NCBI GenBank assembly: GCA_022510865.1
Contig: JAFLSQ010000002.1
Span: forward strand, 1-64,000
Source of the DNA: Treponema sp.
GTDB lineage: Bacteria; Spirochaetota; Spirochaetia; Treponematales; Treponemataceae
DNA: 64,000 nucleotides
Direction: 5' to 3'
Shown: positions 451 to 41,405 of the stretch, in pieces
Layout: each line of letters opens with the position of its first letter
Position numbering within the stretch: the first letter of the stretch is position 1
Notes under the pieces: model-generated
The model's input: only the letters and a program-made list of their open reading frames with translations
What the model was told of the DNA's origin: nothing
Databases searched by the model: none
Made by a program: the position numbers and the translations under genes

Positions 451-681
451 TCACAGGAGGCACGACAAACACGCGGACGCATTTTCATCATGCCTCTTTT
501 TGTCTGAATATCTCAGCGGATTACCAACCCGCACCCCAAAATCCGCAGGCCTCCGTCTAAACGCCGCACAAAGGAAGCGCGACCAGAAGCAGCGAAACGA
601 CAAAATAAAAAATCCGCTCGCAATCCATATCACCCCAAGCACGATGATTTTCCCGCAGCCGCGCAAAAAATCCGTCAGATT
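451..681 (-). pseudogene. Out-of-frame membrane segment continuing the 675-911 gene
   Basis: This frame overlaps the end of the preceding small gene and reads on after a one-base shift at CAGAAAATCTGA. It encodes a stretch with one clear transmembrane helix (IIVLGVIWIASGFFILSF) followed by a basic region (RRRPADFGVRVGNPLRYSDKK). It has no convincing start codon or ribosome site of its own. The simplest reading is that it was once the C-terminal half of the 675-911 protein: a soluble N-terminal part, then a membrane anchor. A real -1 frameshift product is conceivable at the AAAA run, but the run is not a classical slippery heptamer. Confidence 0.35.
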
Positions 682-911
682 TTCTGACGCTCCTGCTCCA
701 GAATCTGCGCGAATTTTGAGTTCTTGTGCTTGTTCAGCTCCAGAAGTTTCTTGTAATAGAACCAGTCGTCCGTCTCCGCCGCGCGAACCTGATAGTACCA
801 CCGCAAATACTGCGGATTTGACCAGCTCTTTGTGTGATACTCAACGCTCTGAACTTTGTGCACGCCCGATGTGGGCGCAACTGTGTGCACATAATCCGTT
901 GGAAAAATCAT
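675..911 (-). CDS. Small protein of unknown function, probably truncated by a frameshift
   Basis: The chosen start is ATG 911, preceded by AGGAGG 4 nt upstream, giving 78 residues that begin MIFPTDYVHTVAPTSGV. A longer frame opens at 968, but the promoter element at 983-1015 would place the transcript start near 975, leaving almost no leader. The middle is rich in aromatic and charged residues (LRWYYQVRAAETDDWFYYKK) and the end is helical and basic. I recognise no family. The start region is duplicated just upstream at 1096, where the homologous protein begins VVLPTDYVYRVARVSGV with a conserved ribosome site. Translation stops at TGA 675, in front of an out-of-frame continuation with a membrane helix, so the annotated product may be incomplete. 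Confidence 0.5.
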   Translation of the reverse strand: MIFPTDYVHTVAPTSGVHKVQSVEYHTKSWSNPQYLRWYYQVRAAETDDWFYYKKLLELNKHKNSKFAQILEQERQKI

Positions 912-955
912 AATCCCTCCTGCAAACACAAGAATCAGCGGCCGATTTTTCCGCG

Positions 956-1096
956 TCATCCTGAGCATAAAATATCCTTAATATTATAAAGCATCTTATT
1001 CCCAATACACGGGAACATCAAGAAAAATTGCAAAGAATCGCCGCTAACCCCGGACACACGCGCAACCCGGTAAACATAATCTGTCGGCAAAACCAC
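956..1096 (-). pseudogene. Truncated duplicate of the neighbouring small gene
   Basis: From GTG 1096, aligned with ATG 911 of the neighbour and behind the same GGAGG site, the frame reads VVLPTDYVYRVARVSGV and then diverges. It runs through the next copy of the TTCCC box (its residues MFPCIGNK are the box translated) and stops at 956. Only about 17 residues resemble the paralogue, so this looks like the 5' end of a tandemly duplicated promoter-plus-gene unit whose body was lost. An ATG at 1144 is in frame, but it lies upstream of the TATAAT hexamer at 1127-1132, so it would not be on a transcript started there. Confidence 0.4.
983..1015 (-). promoter_or_regulatory. TTCCC-box promoter copy 1
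   Basis: On the minus strand TTCCCGTGTATTGGGAA occupies 1015-999 and TATAAT occupies 988-983, with 10 bp between box and hexamer. The GTG of the box sits where a -35 element would be. It precedes the small gene starting at 911. The same element recurs four more times between 1127 and 7588. Confidence 0.65.
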
Positions 1097-1126
1097 AGCA
1101 CCTCCAATCATCAAAGCCATCGTCTG

Positions 1127-1160
1127 ATTATAACGCCGCGTCATTCCCAACGCACGGGAA
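1127..1160 (-). promoter_or_regulatory. TTCCC-box promoter copy 2
   Basis: Minus-strand TTCCCGTGCGTTGGGAA at 1160-1144 is followed after 11 bp by a perfect TATAAT at 1132-1127. It drives, or once drove, the truncated duplicate at 956-1096. The two central bases (CG) differ from the other copies, while the arms, GTG and TT are unchanged. Confidence 0.65.
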
Positions 1161-1177: not shown

Positions 1178-1432
1178 CTACCCTTCCTCTCTCCGCACCT
1201 GCCTGAGTTTCCGCAGGATTTTTGCCTCTATCTGGCGGATTTCCTGCCGGTCAATGCCGAACCGTCCGCCAACATCCCCAAGCGACCGCGCGGGATTTCC
1301 GTCCAGCCCGAACCGCATCGTGATTACCTCCTGCTCAAAAGGAGTCAGAAGCTCAATCGCGCCGCGCATCTGCTCCTGAAGCCGCGCAAAAGCCTCCCTG
1401 CTCTCATCCGTTGTTGTCTGGTTTGTGCTCAT
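1178..1432 (-). CDS. Stand-alone sigma-70 region 4 protein
   Basis: This is an 84-residue protein made almost only of a sigma-70 region 4. Residues 29-43 (LLTPFEQEVITMRFG) match region 4.1 and residues 50-77 (SLGDVGGRFGIDRQEIRQIEAKILRKLR) match the region 4.2 helix-turn-helix that reads the -35 element in RpoD. Regions 1-3 are absent, so it cannot open promoters alone. It could bind DNA, the RNA polymerase beta flap or another sigma factor. In the recognition helix, RpoD has TRERIRQIEAK and this protein has DRQEIRQIEAK: the flanking R is kept, but E-R becomes Q-E, implying altered base preference. The start has GAGGAG 7 nt upstream. It lies just upstream of the two copies of the TTCCC box whose centre occupies a -35 position. 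The family assignment is secure; the role is inference. Confidence 0.85.
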   Translation of the reverse strand: MSTNQTTTDESREAFARLQEQMRGAIELLTPFEQEVITMRFGLDGNPARSLGDVGGRFGIDRQEIRQIEAKILRKLRQVRREEG

Positions 1433-1499: not shown

Positions 1500-3293
1500 T
1501 CAGTATGTATTTTTCTGCCAGCTGTAGCCGCAGTAATCCTTTACAAGCATCCTTGCATTTTCGGCTGAGTCTGTCACATCAACATCATAAATGCTCGCTG
1601 AATCCTTGAAACAATTCCACGTTCTTGTGTCCACAAATTCTACTGATGATAAGGCGCTCTCATACTGGCTGTAAAATGCATATTTACCAATACTCTCCAC
1701 ACTTCTTGGAATCACAATAGACTCCAGTGAATCGCACCGAGAAAATGCTCTTTCACCTATAGTCCTGACTCCATTTCCCAAATCAACTGAAACTAATCTT
1801 TCGCAGGAAAAAAACGCATAATCGGCAATATGCTTTACGTCATCGTAGATTTTTATGTAGGAAAACTTACATCCCATGAACGCCTCGCTGCCTATGTAGT
1901 CCAATGTTCTGGGGAGTATGAGTTTATCAAGGTTATAACACGCGCCAAAATATGACCTAGTTATACCAAGCAGAATGACAGATTCCGACAAATCCAGAGT
2001 GATGGGCTTGTTGGCCTCTACTATTTTTCTTGCTAATTTTTCAAGTGACGAACCTGTAATGTATCCTTCAACACGGACTGTGTATTCCCCGGTAAGGTGC
2101 GACAAATCCAAATCAGCAATATCCTCATCTCTGACGATTACGCCCATGAACTGCCACAGCGCGTAAAGCGTCACAACTGCACCGTCCGTGGCGGACAAAT
2201 TCCTCACGCTCTCGCCGTCCGCGTACATTCTGCCGCCGTCATCAGCCCAGCCATAGAAAGAGTACCCCGAATGCGTGAAAGCATTCCTGCTCAAGTTCTG
2301 CGCCACGCCGTAATAAAAAACCTGCTCGCCCATGCTGCCGCCCCCGCCGCACGCGTCAAAGCGGACTGTGTACTTGTTGCGGTCGTAATAAATTCTTACA
2401 GTTGTAGAACCATCCGATTTTATGATTTCCTGCGAGAAGTCTTTTGCATGAAACCCGGCATAAGTGTTTGCCGTCACCTTTGTGGCAGAATTCTCCGCGC
2501 CGTAAAATGTGCCCGCCTCAACAAACATATAATCTGACAGATTTGTGCCTTGCTGGTAGTGCTCAACGGTATATTTTAAAGGCGGCTTTTCATCCCATTT
2601 TGCGTAGAAAACTGTGTCGCCGCCAAGTCTATAGGGAAATACCGCCGGGATTGTACAGACATCATCCAGAAACCATCCGGCAAAGAAGTACGCGCTTCTT
2701 TCTGTGACGGGAGCCTCATTTATGACCGCCGCATGAACAGACTGCACGGCCGTTCCTCCGTTTGAAACGAACGTTGCCGTATAAGCAGGCAGTGCCCGCC
2801 ATGCGGCGTACAGCGTGACGTTGCAGGTCAGCGTGAGCGGGAATGAGACCGCCTCGCCGGAACAATCCTGCGTCACATACCATCCCGCAAAGACGCTGTC
2901 TGATTTTGCAGTGACCGGCTCATCCTTAATCACAGAAGTCTTGTACGCCGCCACATCGCTGCCGCCGTTCGTCTCAAAGGCAACCAGATATTTCTGATTC
3001 CACTTGGCGTAGAGCGTGGTGTCCTCGGTCAGCTCATAAGGAAATTCGACCGCCCCGCCCGCAAAAGACGCGCTTGTGTACCATCCTGCAAAATCCGCAT
3101 CGTTTTTTTCCAGCGTCCGGATTTCCTTGACCTTGGCCGTCCTGTACGAGTCAAGTTTTGTGTCGCAGTTTGTCTCAAAGCTGACAACGTAAAGCTTCAC
3201 CGCATCCAGCAGAAAAGGATTCGTGCACGAGAGCGCAAGCAGCGCAAGCGATGCCACCAGGCAGAATCTGATTTTTTTAAGCAGGGACATCAT
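1500..3293 (-). CDS. BspA-like surface lipoprotein with Listeria-Bacteroides repeats
   Basis: Starting at ATG 3293 behind GGAGG, this is a 597-residue exported protein. The N-terminus is a lipoprotein signal (LLKKIRFCLVASLALLALSC) with the lipid-modified cysteine near residue 23. Residues about 35-235 hold three Listeria-Bacteroides (Flg_new) repeats, each with an FAGWY/FAGWF core and ending in YAKW or YAAW. Next come a MucBP-like stretch (TVEHYQQGT) and a fourth repeat ending YALW at about 365. Residues about 450-560 are BspA-type leucine-rich repeats (LDYIGSEAFMGC, VKHIADYAFFSC, VRTIGERAFSRC, VESIGKYAF). Such proteins act as adhesins in oral and gut bacteria, including the treponemal LrrA group. 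It is the last gene of the exported-protein cluster that begins at 5998, so it may share regulation by the TTCCC box. The binding target is unknown. Confidence 0.85.
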   Translation of the reverse strand: MMSLLKKIRFCLVASLALLALSCTNPFLLDAVKLYVVSFETNCDTKLDSYRTAKVKEIRTLEKNDADFAGWYTSASFAGGAVEFPYELTEDTTLYAKWNQKYLVAFETNGGSDVAAYKTSVIKDEPVTAKSDSVFAGWYVTQDCSGEAVSFPLTLTCNVTLYAAWRALPAYTATFVSNGGTAVQSVHAAVINEAPVTERSAYFFAGWFLDDVCTIPAVFPYRLGGDTVFYAKWDEKPPLKYTVEHYQQGTNLSDYMFVEAGTFYGAENSATKVTANTYAGFHAKDFSQEIIKSDGSTTVRIYYDRNKYTVRFDACGGGGSMGEQVFYYGVAQNLSRNAFTHSGYSFYGWADDGGRMYADGESVRNLSATDGAVVTLYALWQFMGVIVRDEDIADLDLSHLTGEYTVRVEGYITGSSLEKLARKIVEANKPITLDLSESVILLGITRSYFGACYNLDKLILPRTLDYIGSEAFMGCKFSYIKIYDDVKHIADYAFFSCERLVSVDLGNGVRTIGERAFSRCDSLESIVIPRSVESIGKYAFYSQYESALSSVEFVDTRTWNCFKDSASIYDVDVTDSAENARMLVKDYCGYSWQKNTY

Positions 3294-3400
3294 AAAAACC
3301 TCCAGCGTTTTATTGATATGCGGGCCTGCGACGCAAACCCGGCGGAAAAATCCGCGCATTTTCATTACAGGCATGAACCGGTTCACAGCCCGAAAACCGC

Positions 3401-4336
3401 CTAGAATTCCAGTCCTGCGGAGAAGCCCACGGCGAACATATACGGATAGCCGACGCGAAGAGACGGCTCCAGATAGAGGCATCCGAAATCGACCAGTCGT
3501 CTGAATCCGAGTGCGCCGCCCGCATTGAAGACCGCGTGCGCATCGGAATCCAAGACCAAGGCTGATAATCCCACCTGCGCCTCAATGAAAAAGCCCGAGT
3601 TCGGGTCAAGAAACGGGGCTTTGGGATAAAATCTGAAAGTGCAGAACGTTTCAAACGTAAAAAGCCCGTGAAAATCATAGCCCAGAATCACGTGCGCCCC
3701 GATGGAGAATTTATCGCCCAGCGCGTAGTCAAAAGCCACATTGACGGCGGGAGCAACGTAGTCAATTGAATTCTTGTTCACCTCAAAGCCAAGCCCCAGC
3801 GACCCCCAGTTTAAATATTTAAGCGGCTTCCAGTCCAAAAGGCGGAAGGTGCGCTCGTCAATGGATGAGCGCGGAACTGTGTAGCTTTTCCTGAAAACGT
3901 ACGCGTCGGTCTCCACCGAAATCATCCTTACCCGCAGAATATAATCGCCGCCCACTTCCTCGAACGCGCCGAACACGACGTTCCTCGCGCCGAGCCTTTT
4001 TGCAACGGAAAGGATTGTGCTCTCGTCCACCACGCCCGAATTCTGGAACCGCCGCTCGCGCTCGGTCAACTGCTGAGAGAGCTTGTCGCGTGTCACGATT
4101 CTTACAAGCCCGTCCTGCGCGTAAATCAAATCTCCAAGCTGCTCGCGGATGTACTCGGTCATCTTGGCAGACGGAGACGCAAAATCATCGATTACAAGGA
4201 TGTCCTTCACGCCGCACATCCGCGCAATGTCCGCGCCCGCAAGACGCAGCGCGTTGTCCAGCGTTTTTTCCGCGAACGCCCGCGCACAAAAAGACAGAGT
4301 GAGAAAAATCAGAGTGATTTTCTGCCTTAAGCCCAT
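3401..4336 (-). CDS. CsgG/FlgO-like protein with outer-membrane C-terminal half
   Basis: This is a 311-residue exported protein with a Sec signal (MGLRQKITLIFLTLSFCARAFA, cleavage near residue 22). Residues about 40-155 have the CsgG/FlgO/LpoB-type fold pattern: ILVIDDFASPSAKMTEYIRE, then VRIVTRDKLSQQL, VAKRLGARNVVFGAF and LRVRMISVETDAYV. These match treponemal proteins usually called CsgG or penicillin-binding-protein activator LpoB. Residues about 165-311 alternate hydrophobic and polar residues and end in an aromatic C-terminus (VGFSAGLEF), consistent with a small outer-membrane beta-barrel. The start has AAGGAGG. It sits 57 nt downstream of an LPP20-like gene. I infer an envelope assembly or surface role; the exact function is not known. 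Confidence 0.75.
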   Translation of the reverse strand: MGLRQKITLIFLTLSFCARAFAEKTLDNALRLAGADIARMCGVKDILVIDDFASPSAKMTEYIREQLGDLIYAQDGLVRIVTRDKLSQQLTERERRFQNSGVVDESTILSVAKRLGARNVVFGAFEEVGGDYILRVRMISVETDAYVFRKSYTVPRSSIDERTFRLLDWKPLKYLNWGSLGLGFEVNKNSIDYVAPAVNVAFDYALGDKFSIGAHVILGYDFHGLFTFETFCTFRFYPKAPFLDPNSGFFIEAQVGLSALVLDSDAHAVFNAGGALGFRRLVDFGCLYLEPSLRVGYPYMFAVGFSAGLEF

Positions 4337-4393: not shown

Positions 4394-5347
4394 TCAGCGG
4401 AGATGCTCCTGCGCAAGGCTCTCCAGAATGCGCACTGCCTCCGCGCGGCAGAGCCGCTCCAAAGTCTGCTCGTTGTATGCGGACAGCCTGTCTGTCATTG
4501 CGCAGAGCGTCGCGCCGCCAAGTGTCAGCGTGACCTCCGCCTGCGCATAAAGAATCTCACCGTGATTCTGGCGCATTACATTCGTGACCGCAGAAAAATC
4601 GTACTGGGCGGCTCCGCGCACCACCGAAAAGCCCGCGCCGGAGAGAATGCCCTCCAGCCGTGCGCGCGTGTCCGCCGCAAAATCACCGGAGGCAAGGACG
4701 CGGATTTTCATGCCGGACTTTGCAGACCGCACCTCTTTCTCCAGCACGGCTTTCCGTTCGAGCGTCCTGCCATACTCGCCGCCACGCCCCGGAAAGACCG
4801 CCAGAGCCATGAAGTAAAGGCCCTCAAAATCCGCCATGTCATCAACCGCGCTGCCAAGAAGAAAAAGCCTCCTGAGCGGGTCGCGCTCGCGCTCCGCCGC
4901 CGCAACGGATGCGGTGAACGCACCTTGCAGCAAGTCCAGCCGCCGCGAAAGGACTAGCCACGCCTCATCACGGCTGATGTACGCGCACACGCTGTATGAT
5001 TTGCCCCGCCTGTCGTAGGAGAAGCCGGTGTAGCGCACGGAAAAAAGGCTCGCCGAGGATGATGTCTCCACAATCCGCTCTATTCTTTCCTGCGCGGAGA
5101 AAACGCCGTTCCCGTTCTGCATGACGGATTTTGCCGTCACCCCGCCTGCCACGGTCTGCGAGAAGTAGGCGGCAAGCTCCGCGAGCGCGGATTTTCTTGC
5201 GGCATCCTTTGTCATGCCCTCGCCCACTGCCGCTATGAACTTCTCCTCCGGAAAATTCTTCCGCAAGTCCGTAAGCCCGCCCGCAAAGCAGATGGTTGAG
5301 CAGACGGCCGCAACCGCAATCAGACAGAATTCTCTCATGCCACGCAC
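4394..5347 (-). CDS. LPP20-like exported protein
   Basis: GTG 5347 is preferred because GGAGGG lies 7 nt upstream; the in-frame ATG at 5338 is too far from it. The 317-residue product has a signal peptide (CLIAVAAVCSTICFAGG). Residues about 37-65 carry the LPP20 hallmark IAAVGEGMTKDAARKSALAE, in which a GxG turn precedes an alanine-rich helix. The central part (VVETSSSASLFSVRY, CAYISRDEAW) continues the domain. The C-terminal part (IRVLASGDFAADTRARLEGIL) resembles the alpha-beta modules of CsgG/TolB-like partners. LPP20 proteins are often encoded beside CsgG-like and FlgO/FlgP-like proteins, as here. It is the second gene of the cluster starting at 5998, 18 nt after it. Location is probably periplasmic or outer membrane. 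Confidence 0.75.
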   Translation of the reverse strand: MRGMREFCLIAVAAVCSTICFAGGLTDLRKNFPEEKFIAAVGEGMTKDAARKSALAELAAYFSQTVAGGVTAKSVMQNGNGVFSAQERIERIVETSSSASLFSVRYTGFSYDRRGKSYSVCAYISRDEAWLVLSRRLDLLQGAFTASVAAAERERDPLRRLFLLGSAVDDMADFEGLYFMALAVFPGRGGEYGRTLERKAVLEKEVRSAKSGMKIRVLASGDFAADTRARLEGILSGAGFSVVRGAAQYDFSAVTNVMRQNHGEILYAQAEVTLTLGGATLCAMTDRLSAYNEQTLERLCRAEAVRILESLAQEHLR

Positions 5348-5365: not shown

Positions 5366-5998
5366 TTATCTTGCGTCAACCATCGTGTAGCTCATCAGAT
5401 AGTCAATCAGCTGCGCGGTAATCTCGTCGTCCTCATCGGCGAACGCCCGCTTAATCTGCTTCTGGTACAAGTCCTCGTCAAGCGAGTAGACAACCATGTA
5501 GGTGTACTTGGGCTCGTCTCCGTTTTTCTTGTCGCGCCTGGAGATGCCCAGCACCCACCAGTCGGTCTCCTTGTTCAGCCCGGACACGCTGATTGCCGAC
5601 GCCCTTGCCGAATAACGAGCAACCGTCTCATCCATGCCGCTGTTCTCGCCGCTCGCACGCGCCCCCACAAAATCAGAGATGCCCTGCTTGATTGACGCGC
5701 CGATTTCCGCGCGAGCGTCCACCTGGTCTGCCCATGTCTTCACGAAGTCAAGGTTCTCCCCGCTTTTTGTGACCACCCAGATGTGCTTGTCAATCCCAAG
5801 CGATTTGCTCAGCGTCTTCTGGTTGGGCGTTGACAGCACCGTGGCGACCCACTCCGGCTGCGCCACGCCGAAAGACGTTCCCTTGTGCTCGATGATTTCC
5901 GTAGGCCCGGAGACATCCCTCACTTTGGGCGCGCTCGCGCATGAGCCGAACGCCGCCACGACACCCGCCACTGCCAGAACCAAAGCCACTCTTCTCAT
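5366..5998 (-). CDS. LPP20-family lipoprotein
   Basis: ATG 5998 with AAGGAGG 5 nt upstream gives a 210-residue lipoprotein: MRRVALVLAVAGVVAAFGSC, lipidated cysteine at residue 20. The mature part (PEWVATVLSTPNQKTLSKSL, TWADQVDARAEIGASIKQGI, ETDWWVLGISRRDKKNG, YTYMVVYSLDEDLYQKQI) fits the LPP20 lipoprotein pattern, with alanine-rich helices followed by paired beta strands. It is the first gene of a minus-strand cluster with a second LPP20-like protein, a CsgG/FlgO-like protein and a BspA-like adhesin. A TTCCC-box promoter at 6036-6069 lies about 40 nt upstream with no other promoter visible between them, so expression probably depends on whatever reads that box. It is a probable outer-membrane component of an envelope assembly. 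Confidence 0.8.
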   Translation of the reverse strand: MRRVALVLAVAGVVAAFGSCASAPKVRDVSGPTEIIEHKGTSFGVAQPEWVATVLSTPNQKTLSKSLGIDKHIWVVTKSGENLDFVKTWADQVDARAEIGASIKQGISDFVGARASGENSGMDETVARYSARASAISVSGLNKETDWWVLGISRRDKKNGDEPKYTYMVVYSLDEDLYQKQIKRAFADEDDEITAQLIDYLMSYTMVDAR

Positions 5999-6035: not shown

Positions 6036-6069
6036 AATATAAGACACATCCATTCCCAAGTCACGGGAA
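6036..6069 (-). promoter_or_regulatory. TTCCC-box promoter copy 3
   Basis: Minus-strand TTCCCGTGACTTGGGAA at 6069-6053 is followed after 11 bp by TATATT at 6041-6036, placing a transcript start near 6030. It precedes the LPP20 lipoprotein cluster. The stop codon of the upstream ankyrin gene (TGA at 6061-6063) lies inside the box. Confidence 0.7.
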
Positions 6070-7440
6070 CAAAACTGATTTCCCAGAGTTTTCCAGAAGC
6101 ACAAGACACCGAAGCAGAGCCAGAACCATCTCCCAGTCCTCCCTGAAATTTACCGGAACAAGGGCGCTGCTCACAGCAAGGTGCGCGTCAAAACTGGGGG
6201 TTTTGAGAAGATATGCCGCGCCCGTGTCCACGTTGATTTTCCCGCCGCAGAACGCGAGCAGATGAATCATCTCAAAATCAGGATTCTCGTGGCTGAAGGC
6301 CGCGTCAAGGCACGTCATCCCCCCGACCATGGCATTGACATCCGCGCCGTGCTCAATCAGAAGCCCTGCCATCTCCGTGTTCCCGCACAGAACCGCCACA
6401 CGCAGCGCAGTTCCGTCGTGAACTGTCAGGGCGTTAACGTCCGCGCCGTATTCAATCAGAAGTTTTGCCGCAGAAAGACAGTTGCGCATGGCGGCATACA
6501 TCAGAGGGGTCAGAACTCCGCTTTTCTTTCCATCGTTCGGGCTTACGCCGCATTTCAAAAGGAATTCCAGCATGGTGTCATAATTCGGCTTTATTTCAGG
6601 AAAGCACGATAGAAAGTCATGGTCATCAATCGCCCCGAAAATATCATACTTTGCGCCGTTCTGAATGAGAAACTTCCCCGCCCGCACGCCACCAGAACTG
6701 CACGCACTGCAAAGAGCATTAGTCACAGCAGGACTGCGCTCCGACCAAGTGTTTGTGACGGCCATGAGCGCGCCGTTTTTGAGCAGCAGCCCGCAGATTT
6801 CCACGCTGTCATTATAAGCGGCATTCTCCAGCGCAGATACCATGGTGCACGGATTTCTGAAATTCACGTCCGCGCCATCTGTTATCAGGCTCTCCGCCTT
6901 CCCAAAATCACCGTCAGAGACAGCACGCAGCAGCCGCATATTCACGGCTATGTCATCGCGGTTCAAAAAACTTTCCATGCGGCTGTAATTGGACTGCAAG
7001 TGGAAGCAGCGCAGCCCTATCTTTTCCTTATAAAAAGTGCAGTCATAGAAAACATAGTCAAAGCCCGTGGGCACGGCAAAATGCCGCTCGGTCCCGCCCT
7101 TGGATATGCGCGGCAGGCTTATGTCCGCCCGGAGCTTGTACCTGCCCGTCTCTTTATTGAACTGCGGATTATAAGAATCATAGTACTTCCTGATGTTCTC
7201 AAAATCGGCATCAGAAAGAGGACTGCCGCCCGGCGTGAGCCACACATCCATCTCGCAGAAAAAAACAACCGGAGAATCCATCCTGTAGCAAATTGCGCAG
7301 TTTGACTCGGGATTCGGCTTTCCCTCCCAGATGAAGAAATCGTTCTTGAGCCTCACATCAACAAACTGATTCTCAATCATATTGATTCGCTGGCCGCCAA
7401 GAAAAAATCCTTTCTCGGAAATGCTCAGTTTTATTTCCAT
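6061..7440 (-). CDS. Ankyrin-repeat protein with a distinct N-terminal domain
   Basis: ATG 7440 with GGAGGGG 5 nt upstream is chosen; the frame is open further upstream but has no ribosome site there. The product has 459 residues. Residues 1 to about 165 form a beta-rich domain I do not recognise, with scattered aromatics (NDFFIWEGKPNPESNCAICY, PTGFDYVFYDCTFY). From about residue 170 there are six or more ankyrin units, seen as GDFGKAESLITDGADVNFRN, DSVEICGLLLKNGA, NCLSAAKLLIEYGADVNALT and NTEMAGLLIEHGADVNAMVG. Ankyrin arrays bind other proteins. There is no signal peptide, so it is probably cytoplasmic. The TTCCC-box promoter at 7476-7509 lies directly upstream, and its neighbour on the other side is the WYL regulator. 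The gene ends inside the next TTCCC box. Confidence 0.85.
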   Translation of the reverse strand: MEIKLSISEKGFFLGGQRINMIENQFVDVRLKNDFFIWEGKPNPESNCAICYRMDSPVVFFCEMDVWLTPGGSPLSDADFENIRKYYDSYNPQFNKETGRYKLRADISLPRISKGGTERHFAVPTGFDYVFYDCTFYKEKIGLRCFHLQSNYSRMESFLNRDDIAVNMRLLRAVSDGDFGKAESLITDGADVNFRNPCTMVSALENAAYNDSVEICGLLLKNGALMAVTNTWSERSPAVTNALCSACSSGGVRAGKFLIQNGAKYDIFGAIDDHDFLSCFPEIKPNYDTMLEFLLKCGVSPNDGKKSGVLTPLMYAAMRNCLSAAKLLIEYGADVNALTVHDGTALRVAVLCGNTEMAGLLIEHGADVNAMVGGMTCLDAAFSHENPDFEMIHLLAFCGGKINVDTGAAYLLKTPSFDAHLAVSSALVPVNFREDWEMVLALLRCLVLLENSGKSVLFP

Positions 7441-7475: not shown

Positions 7476-7509
7476 ATAATAGCGCAGACATATTCCCAAG
7501 TCACGGGAA
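7476..7509 (-). promoter_or_regulatory. TTCCC-box promoter copy 4
   Basis: Minus-strand TTCCCGTGACTTGGGAA at 7509-7493, then 11 bp, then TATTAT at 7481-7476. Inside the box, GTGACT stands 17 bp from the hexamer, the classical -35 distance. It lies 53 bp upstream of the ankyrin gene start. Confidence 0.7.
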
Positions 7510-7529: not shown

Positions 7530-7557
7530 TTGACTTTCTGCCGGAATAGTGTAGAAT
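7530..7557 (+). promoter_or_regulatory. Sigma-70 promoter of the WYL regulator gene
   Basis: TTGACT at 7530-7535, a 16-bp spacer and TAGAAT at 7552-7557 point to a transcript start near 7565, about 40 nt before the WYL gene. TTCCC-box copy 5 lies wholly downstream of this start, where a bound repressor would block RNA polymerase. Confidence 0.55.
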
Positions 7558-7571
7558 ATAAACTGCATACA

Positions 7572-7588
7572 TTCCCAAGTCACGGGAA
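7572..7588. promoter_or_regulatory. TTCCC-box copy 5, operator candidate of the WYL gene
   Basis: The 17-bp box is identical to copies 3 and 4. Read on the minus strand it is followed 11 bp on by TATATT (7560-7555), as in the other copies, so it could fire leftward toward the ankyrin gene. For the plus-strand WYL gene it lies between promoter and start codon, 17 bp before the ATG and just ahead of the ribosome site AGGGGG. Confidence 0.65.
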
Positions 7589-7605
7589 TAAATCAGGGGG
7601 ATTTC

Positions 7606-8655
7606 ATGGCTGTTGACTTCACGGAGAGGGCAAAACGCTATCAGGCGATTGACGAGATTATCGCGTCGGGCAGGATGCTCAAATGGAACCAGATTATCGC
7701 GGAGCTTGGCGAGAAGTACGGAATCAAAACCAGCCGCACATCTTTTTTCCGCGATATTGAGGACTTGCAGGAGAAATACGCCGCGCCGATTGACACGGAC
7801 TTTGAGACCAGCGGATATTTCTACACCGACCCGCAGTACCGCCTGCCGCGCTTCTACACGGACGAGAACGCCGCCAAAGCCGCAAGGCTGCTGAAAAACC
7901 TGCTTGACATGGTGAGGAACAATCCGCTTTACGACGAGGCCCGCGAGGTGTTCGAGTCGCTTTCGGTGGAGAGCCGTGACCTTTCACTGGAGAGAATCAG
8001 AATCAAGAAGAAGCCGGAGGACGACAGGATTATTTTTGTGGGCGCGCCGAACAAGAAAATCCCCGCGGAGACATGGCGGATTATCTCCCGCGCGCTCTAC
8101 GAGAACCGCGTGATAACGTTCGAGTACAAGTCGCTCACAAGCCCCGGACTGCGCGGACGGCGCGTGCAGCCATGGCAGCTGATTTTTGATGACGGCAACT
8201 GGAATCTCCACGCGCTTGACGTGGTGAAAAACGCGAGGCGGCGTTACAGCCTGAGCGAGATAAAGAACCTTAAAATCACAAACGAGGTCTTCACCCTCCC
8301 CAAGGACTACGACTTCCGCAATATGACGGCAGGCTCGTTCGGCTGTATGTGCCATGACGAGCACCTTGACTACAAAATCCACCTGCACGGCTACGCAGCC
8401 CGCTTCGCCAAAAACCGCGTGTGGGGCGAGTGCCAGACAATCACGGAGGACACGACGCATCCCGGCCCTGACGGCGACGGCGTGATTCTGAGCTTCCGCA
8501 GCAACCAGCTTGAGTCCATAGAGCACTGGGTGTGGAAATGGGCGGACGAGGCATGGCCGATTGAGCCGCAGGTTCTGGTGGATGACTGGAACGGAAGGCT
8601 TGGCAGGGTTAATGAGATAGCAAGGCTCGGAGTCTGCGGCGCGGACGTATCCTAG
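7606..8655 (+). CDS. WYL-domain transcriptional regulator
   Basis: This is a 349-residue regulator. Residues about 10-70 form a winged helix-turn-helix (RYQAIDEIIASGRMLKWNQI, then IKTSRTSFFRDIEDLQEKY). Residues about 150-245 form a WYL domain (ISRALYENRVITFEYKS, VQPWQLIFDDGNWNLHALDV, RRRYSLSEIKNLKIT), in which the usual W-Y-L core reads WNLHALD. Residues about 265-345 form a C-terminal extension of the WCX type (IHLHGYAARFAKNRVWGE, WVWKWADEAWPIEPQVL). WYL proteins sense ligands, often nucleotides or nucleic acid, and commonly control defence or accessory loci beside them. The TTCCC box overlaps its own leader and recurs only in this neighbourhood, so autoregulation and control of the cluster at 245-7440 are plausible. 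The ATG has AGGGGG upstream. Family assignment is firm; the operator link is inference. Confidence 0.88.
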   Translation: MAVDFTERAKRYQAIDEIIASGRMLKWNQIIAELGEKYGIKTSRTSFFRDIEDLQEKYAAPIDTDFETSGYFYTDPQYRLPRFYTDENAAKAARLLKNLLDMVRNNPLYDEAREVFESLSVESRDLSLERIRIKKKPEDDRIIFVGAPNKKIPAETWRIISRALYENRVITFEYKSLTSPGLRGRRVQPWQLIFDDGNWNLHALDVVKNARRRYSLSEIKNLKITNEVFTLPKDYDFRNMTAGSFGCMCHDEHLDYKIHLHGYAARFAKNRVWGECQTITEDTTHPGPDGDGVILSFRSNQLESIEHWVWKWADEAWPIEPQVLVDDWNGRLGRVNEIARLGVCGADVS

Positions 8656-40515: not shown

Positions 40516-41405
40516 CCGCTTTTTTTTCCTAAAAACTTTTTCAGGAAGTTCGACACGCCCTCGTTGTATTCAGGCTCGGTTTTCTCTATGCGCCCCACGA
40601 TGTGCCTAAGATATGCGGCGGGCTTTGACGTAGGGTTCACGATTATGAACGGCTTCTGGCGGATTACCGCGGCCTGAACCAGCGGGTCCTCCGGAATGCA
40701 GCCAAGATACTCGACTTTATAGCTCAGAAACTGCCCGACAATCGTTATGATTCGCTCCGCAATCCTTTTTCCCTCGTCCGGGGAATGAACGCGGTTCACA
40801 ATCAGCTTTATGTCCACAGTGCGGTCAACAATCTCTGTCGTTATGATTTTTATGATTCCGTATGCGTCCGTGATTGCCGTAGGCTCGGGGGTGGTGACCA
40901 CAAAAACCTCATCCGCAGCGGCCACAAATTGCAGGACATTGTTTGCGATTCCCGCTCCCGTGTCTATGATGATTATATCGGCGTTCCCCAGAGTGGAGAA
41001 CTGGTTCGCAAAATACTCAAGCTCCTCCACGCTCAGGTTCGCGATTTTTGAGAAACCGTTCGCGCCCGCCACGAATTTTATGCCGAATTCCGTGTCATTG
41101 ATGATTTCCTTCATCGTCTTTTTCTTATTGATGACGTGCATAAGGTTGTACTGCGGGACAATGTTCAGGAGGACGTTCACGTTCGCCATCCCAAGGTCTC
41201 CGTCTATCAGAATGACTTTCTTGCCAAGCTGCGCATACGCGATTGACATATTCACGGCAAAATTCGTTTTCCCGACTCCGCCTTTTCCGCTTGTGACCGC
41301 TATAATCCGTGTATTATGATCTCTGTGCGCCAGTTTCGTTTTCTGTTCCTGGGCAACTGTGGCCTCTGCCATCAACTCTCTCAATCCTTCTGCCTGTTCT
41401 TCCAT
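40509..41405 (-). CDS. flhG: FlhG/YlxH MinD-like flagellar number regulator
   Basis: This 298-residue ParA/MinD-type ATPase has the deviant Walker A ITSGKGGVGKTNFAVNMSIA-type sequence (AVTSGKGGVGKTNFAVN, residues about 35-50), VILIDGDLGMANVNVLLNIV and DIIIIDTGAGIANNVLQFVA. The N-terminal helix EEQAEGLRELM carries the DQAxxLR-like motif by which FlhG stimulates FlhF GTPase. It works with FlhF to set the site and number of periplasmic flagella. It starts 6 nt after flhF. Confidence 0.93.
   Translation of the reverse strand: MEEQAEGLRELMAEATVAQEQKTKLAHRDHNTRIIAVTSGKGGVGKTNFAVNMSIAYAQLGKKVILIDGDLGMANVNVLLNIVPQYNLMHVINKKKTMKEIINDTEFGIKFVAGANGFSKIANLSVEELEYFANQFSTLGNADIIIIDTGAGIANNVLQFVAAADEVFVVTTPEPTAITDAYGIIKIITTEIVDRTVDIKLIVNRVHSPDEGKRIAERIITIVGQFLSYKVEYLGCIPEDPLVQAAVIRQKPFIIVNPTSKPAAYLRHIVGRIEKTEPEYNEGVSNFLKKFLGKKSGR

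Follow-up and report, generated by a model that had tools for sequence, protein, structure and literature searches.

A gene encoding a small protein of 84 amino acids (hereafter r4) lies near the start of the window, the 64,000-nt stretch of Treponema sp. DNA analysed here, and is the last gene of an operon led by a palindromic box, TTCCC-N7-GGGAA (Table 1). The gene begins with ATG and is preceded by a ribosome-binding site (aGAGGAGGA). The operon opens with a lipoprotein gene, followed by genes for LPP20-like and LpoB-like proteins and for a secreted protein with Flg_new and BspA-type leucine-rich repeats, whose true start is probably near 3290. A hairpin in the interval between this repeat gene and r4 (1433-1510) was no better than those in shuffled sequences (z -0.65); therefore, the interval gives no argument against a single operon. 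Upstream of the operon, an ankyrin-repeat gene with its own box and a divergently oriented gene for a WYL-domain regulator were found. r4 is present in a single copy in its genome, and RpoD of the same genome is encoded elsewhere.

Table 1 Features of the island at the start of the window
Feature	Position	Strand	Evidence or details
Box-led 97-aa protein	675..968	minus	No Pfam match
Decayed partial copy of the small gene 675-968	956-1150		Own box at 1144
Box before small gene 675-968	999..1015	minus	-10 TATAAT at 988-983
Box before decayed copy of small gene	1144..1160	minus	-10 TATAAT at 1132-1127
r4, stand-alone sigma region 4, 84 aa	1178..1432	minus	Pfam, fold model, PDB fold match; translation MSTNQTTTDESREAFARLQEQMRGAIELLTPFEQEVITMRFGLDGNPARSLGDVGGRFGIDRQEIRQIEAKILRKLRQVRREEG
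Secreted protein, Flg_new and BspA-type leucine-rich repeats, upstream of r4 in same operon	1500..3482	minus	Same order in island L075
LpoB-like lipoprotein	3401..4336	minus	Pfam LpoB E 0.0066, below cut-off; conserved in islands
LPP20-like protein	4394..5347	minus	Pfam LPP20 E 0.001, below cut-off; conserved in islands
Lipoprotein, first gene of operon ending with r4	5366..5998	minus	65-73% identity in four islands; start 54 nt after box
Box of r4 operon promoter, TTCCCGTGACTTGGGAA	6053..6069	minus	-35 GTGACT (6064-6059), 17 bp, -10 TATATT (6041-6036)
Ankyrin-repeat protein	6061..7440	minus	Pfam Ank_2 E 5.8e-25; start 52 nt after own box
Box of ankyrin gene	7493..7509	minus	-35 GTGACT, 17 bp, -10 TATTAT
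Probable WYL gene promoter	7530..7557	plus	TTGACT, 16 bp, TAGAAT; 7572 box just downstream
Box between divergent ankyrin and WYL genes, pointing away from WYL	7572..7588	minus	GTGACT, 17 bp, TATATT
WYL-domain regulator, proposed box reader	7606..8655	plus	Pfam WYL E 2.6e-11 (above cut-off), WCX 7.7e-5 (just below)

The r4 protein matched Pfam Sigma70_r4 over the whole profile (residues 24-77 of the protein, positions 1-50 of 50; E = 1.8e-11, 43.8 bits, cut-off 24.1), and this was the sole Pfam family matched, in agreement with an earlier reading made from the sequence alone that r4 consists of sigma region 4 and nothing else. A single-sequence fold prediction gave four helices with a mean pLDDT of 79.9, and the top matches of this predicted region-4 fold in the PDB were sigma-A domain 4 (TM relative to the target 0.77-0.86). 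r4 corresponds to the portion of the main sigma factor that contacts the -35 element; it is not a complete sigma factor, since it lacks region 2, which serves -10 recognition and core binding. It clearly resembles region 4 of the RpoD proteins of the genus and shares with RpoD the M561-R562-F563-G564 segment and R588 (numbered after what we take to be the E. coli RpoD sequence), but it is free-standing and lacks the C-terminal HPRR..LRDYI tail of RpoD. The altered recognition helix described by the sequence-only reading, in which TRERIRQIEAK has become DRQEIRQIEAK, was confirmed (T583D, E585Q and R586E, thus including the E-to-Q and R-to-E changes). However, R584, R588 and Q589 were retained, and most of the base-reading residues are unchanged despite the substitutions.

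The exact TTCCC-N7-GGGAA box occurred six times in the window (0.07 expected from shuffles); the 2.28-Mb genome has 15 such sites. Genome-wide, the form with a GTGNNTT spacer did not occur outside the first 8 kb of the window. Specifically, five window boxes (999, 1144, 6053, 7493 and 7572) carry this spacer on the minus strand, and each is followed, after 10-11 nt, by a -10 hexamer; this bears out the earlier description of the palindromes as -35-positioned. An independent general promoter scan identified GTGACT-17-TATATT/TATTAT at three of the window boxes. The sixth box (40769-40785) has an unrelated spacer and lies far from the island. Among 200 genomes of the genus, the oriented box pattern was found in 45, and the reversed control gave no match. 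The gap between the box end and the -10 hexamer (TATATT/TATAAT) was 11 nt in 80 of the 87 boxes scored (89 distinct boxes), and this gap together with the usual 17-bp spacing places the -35 element at box positions 6-11. The hexamer at these positions was G/T-T-G/A-A/C-C/A-T, most commonly the weak GTGACT or GTGCAT, although conservation at box positions 6, 7, 11 and 12 was partly imposed by the box-collecting scan, which demanded some of the spacer letters. When all island boxes with exact arms were counted without any spacer demand and oriented by the better -10, GTGACTT, GTGCATT and TTAACTT still prevailed. The TTCCC and GGGAA arms thus flank a weak -35 hexamer situated 17 bp from a good -10, and this hexamer lies within the spacer, outside the arms. 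GTGACT and GTGCAT dominated in islands with and without region 4 alike, and the TTAACT type was found only in islands without it.

Genes led by boxes in the islands encode LPP20/LpoB-like lipoproteins, leucine-rich-repeat and other secreted proteins, ankyrin proteins and small membrane peptides, as well as an AAA ATPase together with a fusion of the FlhA cytoplasmic domain to region 4. Boxes of the TTAACTT form lead PARG/macro and SLOG proteins beside a sigma factor of 227 aa. This small sigma factor, with PARG/macro and YpsA-SLOG neighbours, was seen in five islands (L160:2288-2968, L188:12469-13149, L082:2118-2798, L193 and L179); its region 4 was assigned by a match and its region 2 by eye. 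The first ORFs after the box in L143, L149, L155, L157, L163, L178 and other islands encode membrane peptides of 52-67 aa, many with an N-P/E-x-F-W-like motif. The first long ORFs after the box in L078, L144, L149, L166 and L176 encode a secreted family with a YDYNGDGKINCxDYSCVFKxTWD-like motif, and the one member tested had no Pfam match. Box-led DUF7738 matches were found at L075:6140-6988 and L077:7285-8388; the former also gave a weak FlhB C-terminal-like match (Bac_export_2, E = 0.0016), with the NPTH cleavage site seemingly absent by eye. Defence-system models returned only generic WYL, MzaA-domain and ankyrin matches.

The neighbouring WYL regulator is predicted, with good support from co-occurrence and position, to be the reader of the box. 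Close relatives of this protein (at least 67% identity) were found in 37 of the 200 genomes, 33 of which have the box (Fisher p = 2e-23, kinship ignored). Of 40 loci at which the start of the WYL gene is intact, 28 have a box 14-204 nt upstream of it, and all 28 boxes point away from that gene. Seven WYL loci that lack or deviate from the oriented box (L197, L198, L201, L148, L167, L169 and L156) keep ATTCCC-N7-GGGAAT-like arms with other spacers; because the arms are kept while the spacer changes, the two seem to have separate readers. The WYL protein probably reads the arms, and sigma would constrain the spacer. Among solved structures, the WYL protein was closest to chains that, judging by their entry codes, are presumably of the DriD type (E = 6e-10 to 3e-9), followed by PafBC (6e-6) and by chains presumed, on the same grounds, to be CapW-type (2e-4) and BrxR (0.003). 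The similarity to DriD was limited to the WYL-WCX part, residues 162-327. A DriD-type activator is expected to carry an N-terminal winged helix and to be activated by ssDNA; here the N-terminus gave a weak match to a DNA-binding family, and the fold model of the WYL protein was too poor for use (mean pLDDT 38.7).

DriD of Caulobacter crescentus is reported to be a WYL dimer that binds a pseudo-palindrome and flanks the -35 element with its DNA-binding domains, with sigma-4 sandwiched between them; it acts at a fixed distance from the -10 and at nonoptimal -35s, and activates an operon divergent from driD without controlling itself (PMC12340889). The checkable sequence-level features of this promoter arrangement were found in the islands carrying the box and the WYL gene: a palindrome centred on a weak -35 at a constant distance from the -10, and a site oriented towards a divergent gene. 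The two regulators would also share the WYL-WCX make-up, the WCX match here falling just below the cut-off. The likeness concerns the promoter arrangement at the sequence level; the box sequence, the targets and the ligand are not known to agree. Unlike here, the part of the DriD report covered mentions no free region-4 protein (PMC12340889).

An inverted repeat between the WYL promoter and the WYL gene (window 7530-7606) fits BrxR/CapW and DriD alike. It is possible but doubtful that the WYL protein is a repressor of the BrxR/CapW type, which would cover the -35s of its targets and repress itself from the box downstream of its own -10, with r4 as derepressed cargo. BrxR represses by binding to inverted repeats located immediately downstream of its own promoter (PMC9122601), and BrxR and CapW share with the present system a WYL regulator and an inverted repeat at its promoter (PMC9122601, PMC9122588). 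The 7572 box starts 15 nt downstream of the -10 of the WYL gene, and the loci L148 and L201 look alike in this respect. However, a repressor would have no need of a fixed distance to the -10, yet the gap was constant, and the -35s of the box promoters are weak. Moreover, DriD is the closer relative, and DriD sites, too, lie beside a divergent start, although DriD does not control itself. The published BrxR arms are 10-11 bp with 5-bp spacers, the sequence similarity of BrxR and CapW to the WYL protein is lower, and several separate targets are found here as opposed to one defence operon. Another WYL regulator, PafBC, acts at sigma domain 4 in sigma adaptation, but it is a heterodimer reading a -26 motif and not a palindrome centred on the -35 (PMC11804915).

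A first search with the r4 protein returned chiefly RpoD, and the box positions in relatives then revealed islands with the same operon. A family profile separated r4 members (108-128 bits) from RpoD (at most 106). The r4 family was present in 17 of the 200 genomes, all 17 of which carry the box (Fisher p = 6e-13, kinship ignored); the sequence-only reading had tied such homologues to the TTCCC box, and none was found in a box-less genome among the 200. Across these genomes the family was confined to box islands, 3' of a box. Specifically, a co-oriented box lay 76-5100 nt upstream at 16 of 18 family loci, and at the other two the contig extends just 150 and 801 nt upstream. Short RpoD-like frames in G064, G202, G150, G130, G091 and G169 were considered as counterexamples and rejected, since all read TRERIRQIEAK and are ordinary pieces of RpoD; five of them are truncated at a contig end, whether at its start or its finish, and the frame in G064 breaks within its contig. 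No stand-alone region-4 family of this kind was found described in PHROG, PADLOC or the literature. Additionally, neither r4 nor the WYL protein had a relative among viral contigs, and an origin from a phage or plasmid was rejected, the WYL protein having no match in phage records and plasmid matches of at most 26% identity.

Three layouts of the family were found: a single region 4 (window, L075, L152, L159 and L178), a tandem double region 4 (L150, L170, L177, L212 and L215) and a region 4 fused behind an FlhA cytoplasmic domain (L074, L143, L145, L154, L184, L190, L191 and L194). The fusions are about 420-460 aa long and lack the membrane part (for example, L074:150-1403 and L143:7358-8689); the L143 protein matched FHIPEP (E = 2e-53) and Sigma70_r4 (4e-13). 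Such fusions were restricted to this genus among 394 sampled genomes of the order. They suggest that region 4 could be part of an export-gate module, an FlhA cytoplasmic domain beside an AAA ATPase, which it would tether to RNA polymerase or DNA; eight islands carry the fusion, in some directly behind an AAA ATPase. This reading is improbable, as FlhA sequence is absent from the window copy and from nine other loci. Still harder to credit is that r4 is a functionless relic, a decaying fragment of a duplicated rpoD. The likeness to RpoD of the genus and the decayed neighbour copy at 956-1150 would suit a relic, but pairwise dN/dS values of 0.06-0.45 indicate purifying selection among relatives, nine positions are invariant in the family, and r4 is retained in operons with its start and ribosome site intact.

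The conserved and variable positions of the family bear on the proposal, made from the sequence alone, that r4 may recognise the TTCCC arms instead of the usual -35, either alone or as a dimer. Relative to E. coli RpoD, E555, M561, R562, G564, R588, E591 and L595 were kept in 14 of 14 members, and R554 and R586 were lost in all, position 586 being E, K or D. Positions 584 (R/L/H/S), 585 (E/L/K/Q/N) and 589 (G/K/T/R/I/M/Q) varied, while the box arms are invariant; because of this variation, the family is no conserved reader of one DNA sequence, although single contacts may remain. The perfect co-occurrence with the box, the altered helix and the tandem double region 4 of some islands, which could span the palindrome, favour recognition of the arms by r4. 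However, 28 of the 45 box genomes lack the family, the adjacent WYL regulator accounts better for the arms, and the sigma-type -35 lies inside the spacer. Recognition of TTCCC by r4 is therefore unlikely, and a role as the reader of the arms in place of the usual -35 very much so. r4 may nevertheless bind DNA, because R562 and R588 were kept throughout the family and the window copy also has R584 and Q589.

Since the palindrome is best explained as a WYL site, r4 is more likely a decoy or helper at RNA polymerase than a palindrome reader. The reading we favour, at a probability of roughly 0.55, is that r4 represents RpoD region 4 in free form, produced within a DriD-like WYL regulon and acting as a decoy with a feedback effect or as a co-activator. 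By analogy with DriD, a WYL dimer would bind the box arms and activate by holding sigma region 4 in a clasp over the weak -35. We infer that r4 would act as a mimic of sigma region 4, occupying its place, which could be at the tip of the beta flap or, at the box, between the subunits of the WYL dimer. As a decoy, r4 would limit the response once made; as a helper, it would replace region 4 of RpoD, and supplying region 4 at the box promoters, an idea akin to that of the sequence-only reading, would be one version of this model. The two versions predict opposite effects. Phage T4 gp33 would be comparable in the way it works, as a small protein replacing sigma region 4 on the beta flap, but it is structurally unrelated to region 4 and acts with gp55 and the sliding clamp (PMC7892883). 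Seventeen of the 28 box genomes without the r4 family have both the box and the WYL gene, suggesting that box promoters work without r4; because so many box/WYL genomes do without it, its role would be accessory. More tentatively, and at less than even odds, the full scheme would pair a WYL activator clasping sigma region 4 over the -35 with a regulon-encoded free region 4, in single, tandem or FlhA-fused form, that occupies the clasped site and would thereby tune or redirect RNA polymerase at the box promoters.

The box, the WYL regulator and the targets make up a sequence-defined regulon in a spirochaete-like genus, with a promoter geometry recently described for DriD. In addition, a free copy of exactly the sigma domain around which the DriD clasp closes recurs in it, in some islands in tandem form or fused to a domain of the flagellar export gate. 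Decoys or substitutes of region 4 are so far best known from phage proteins acting at the same place; should the mimic act on RNA polymerase, bacteria would provide an example as well.
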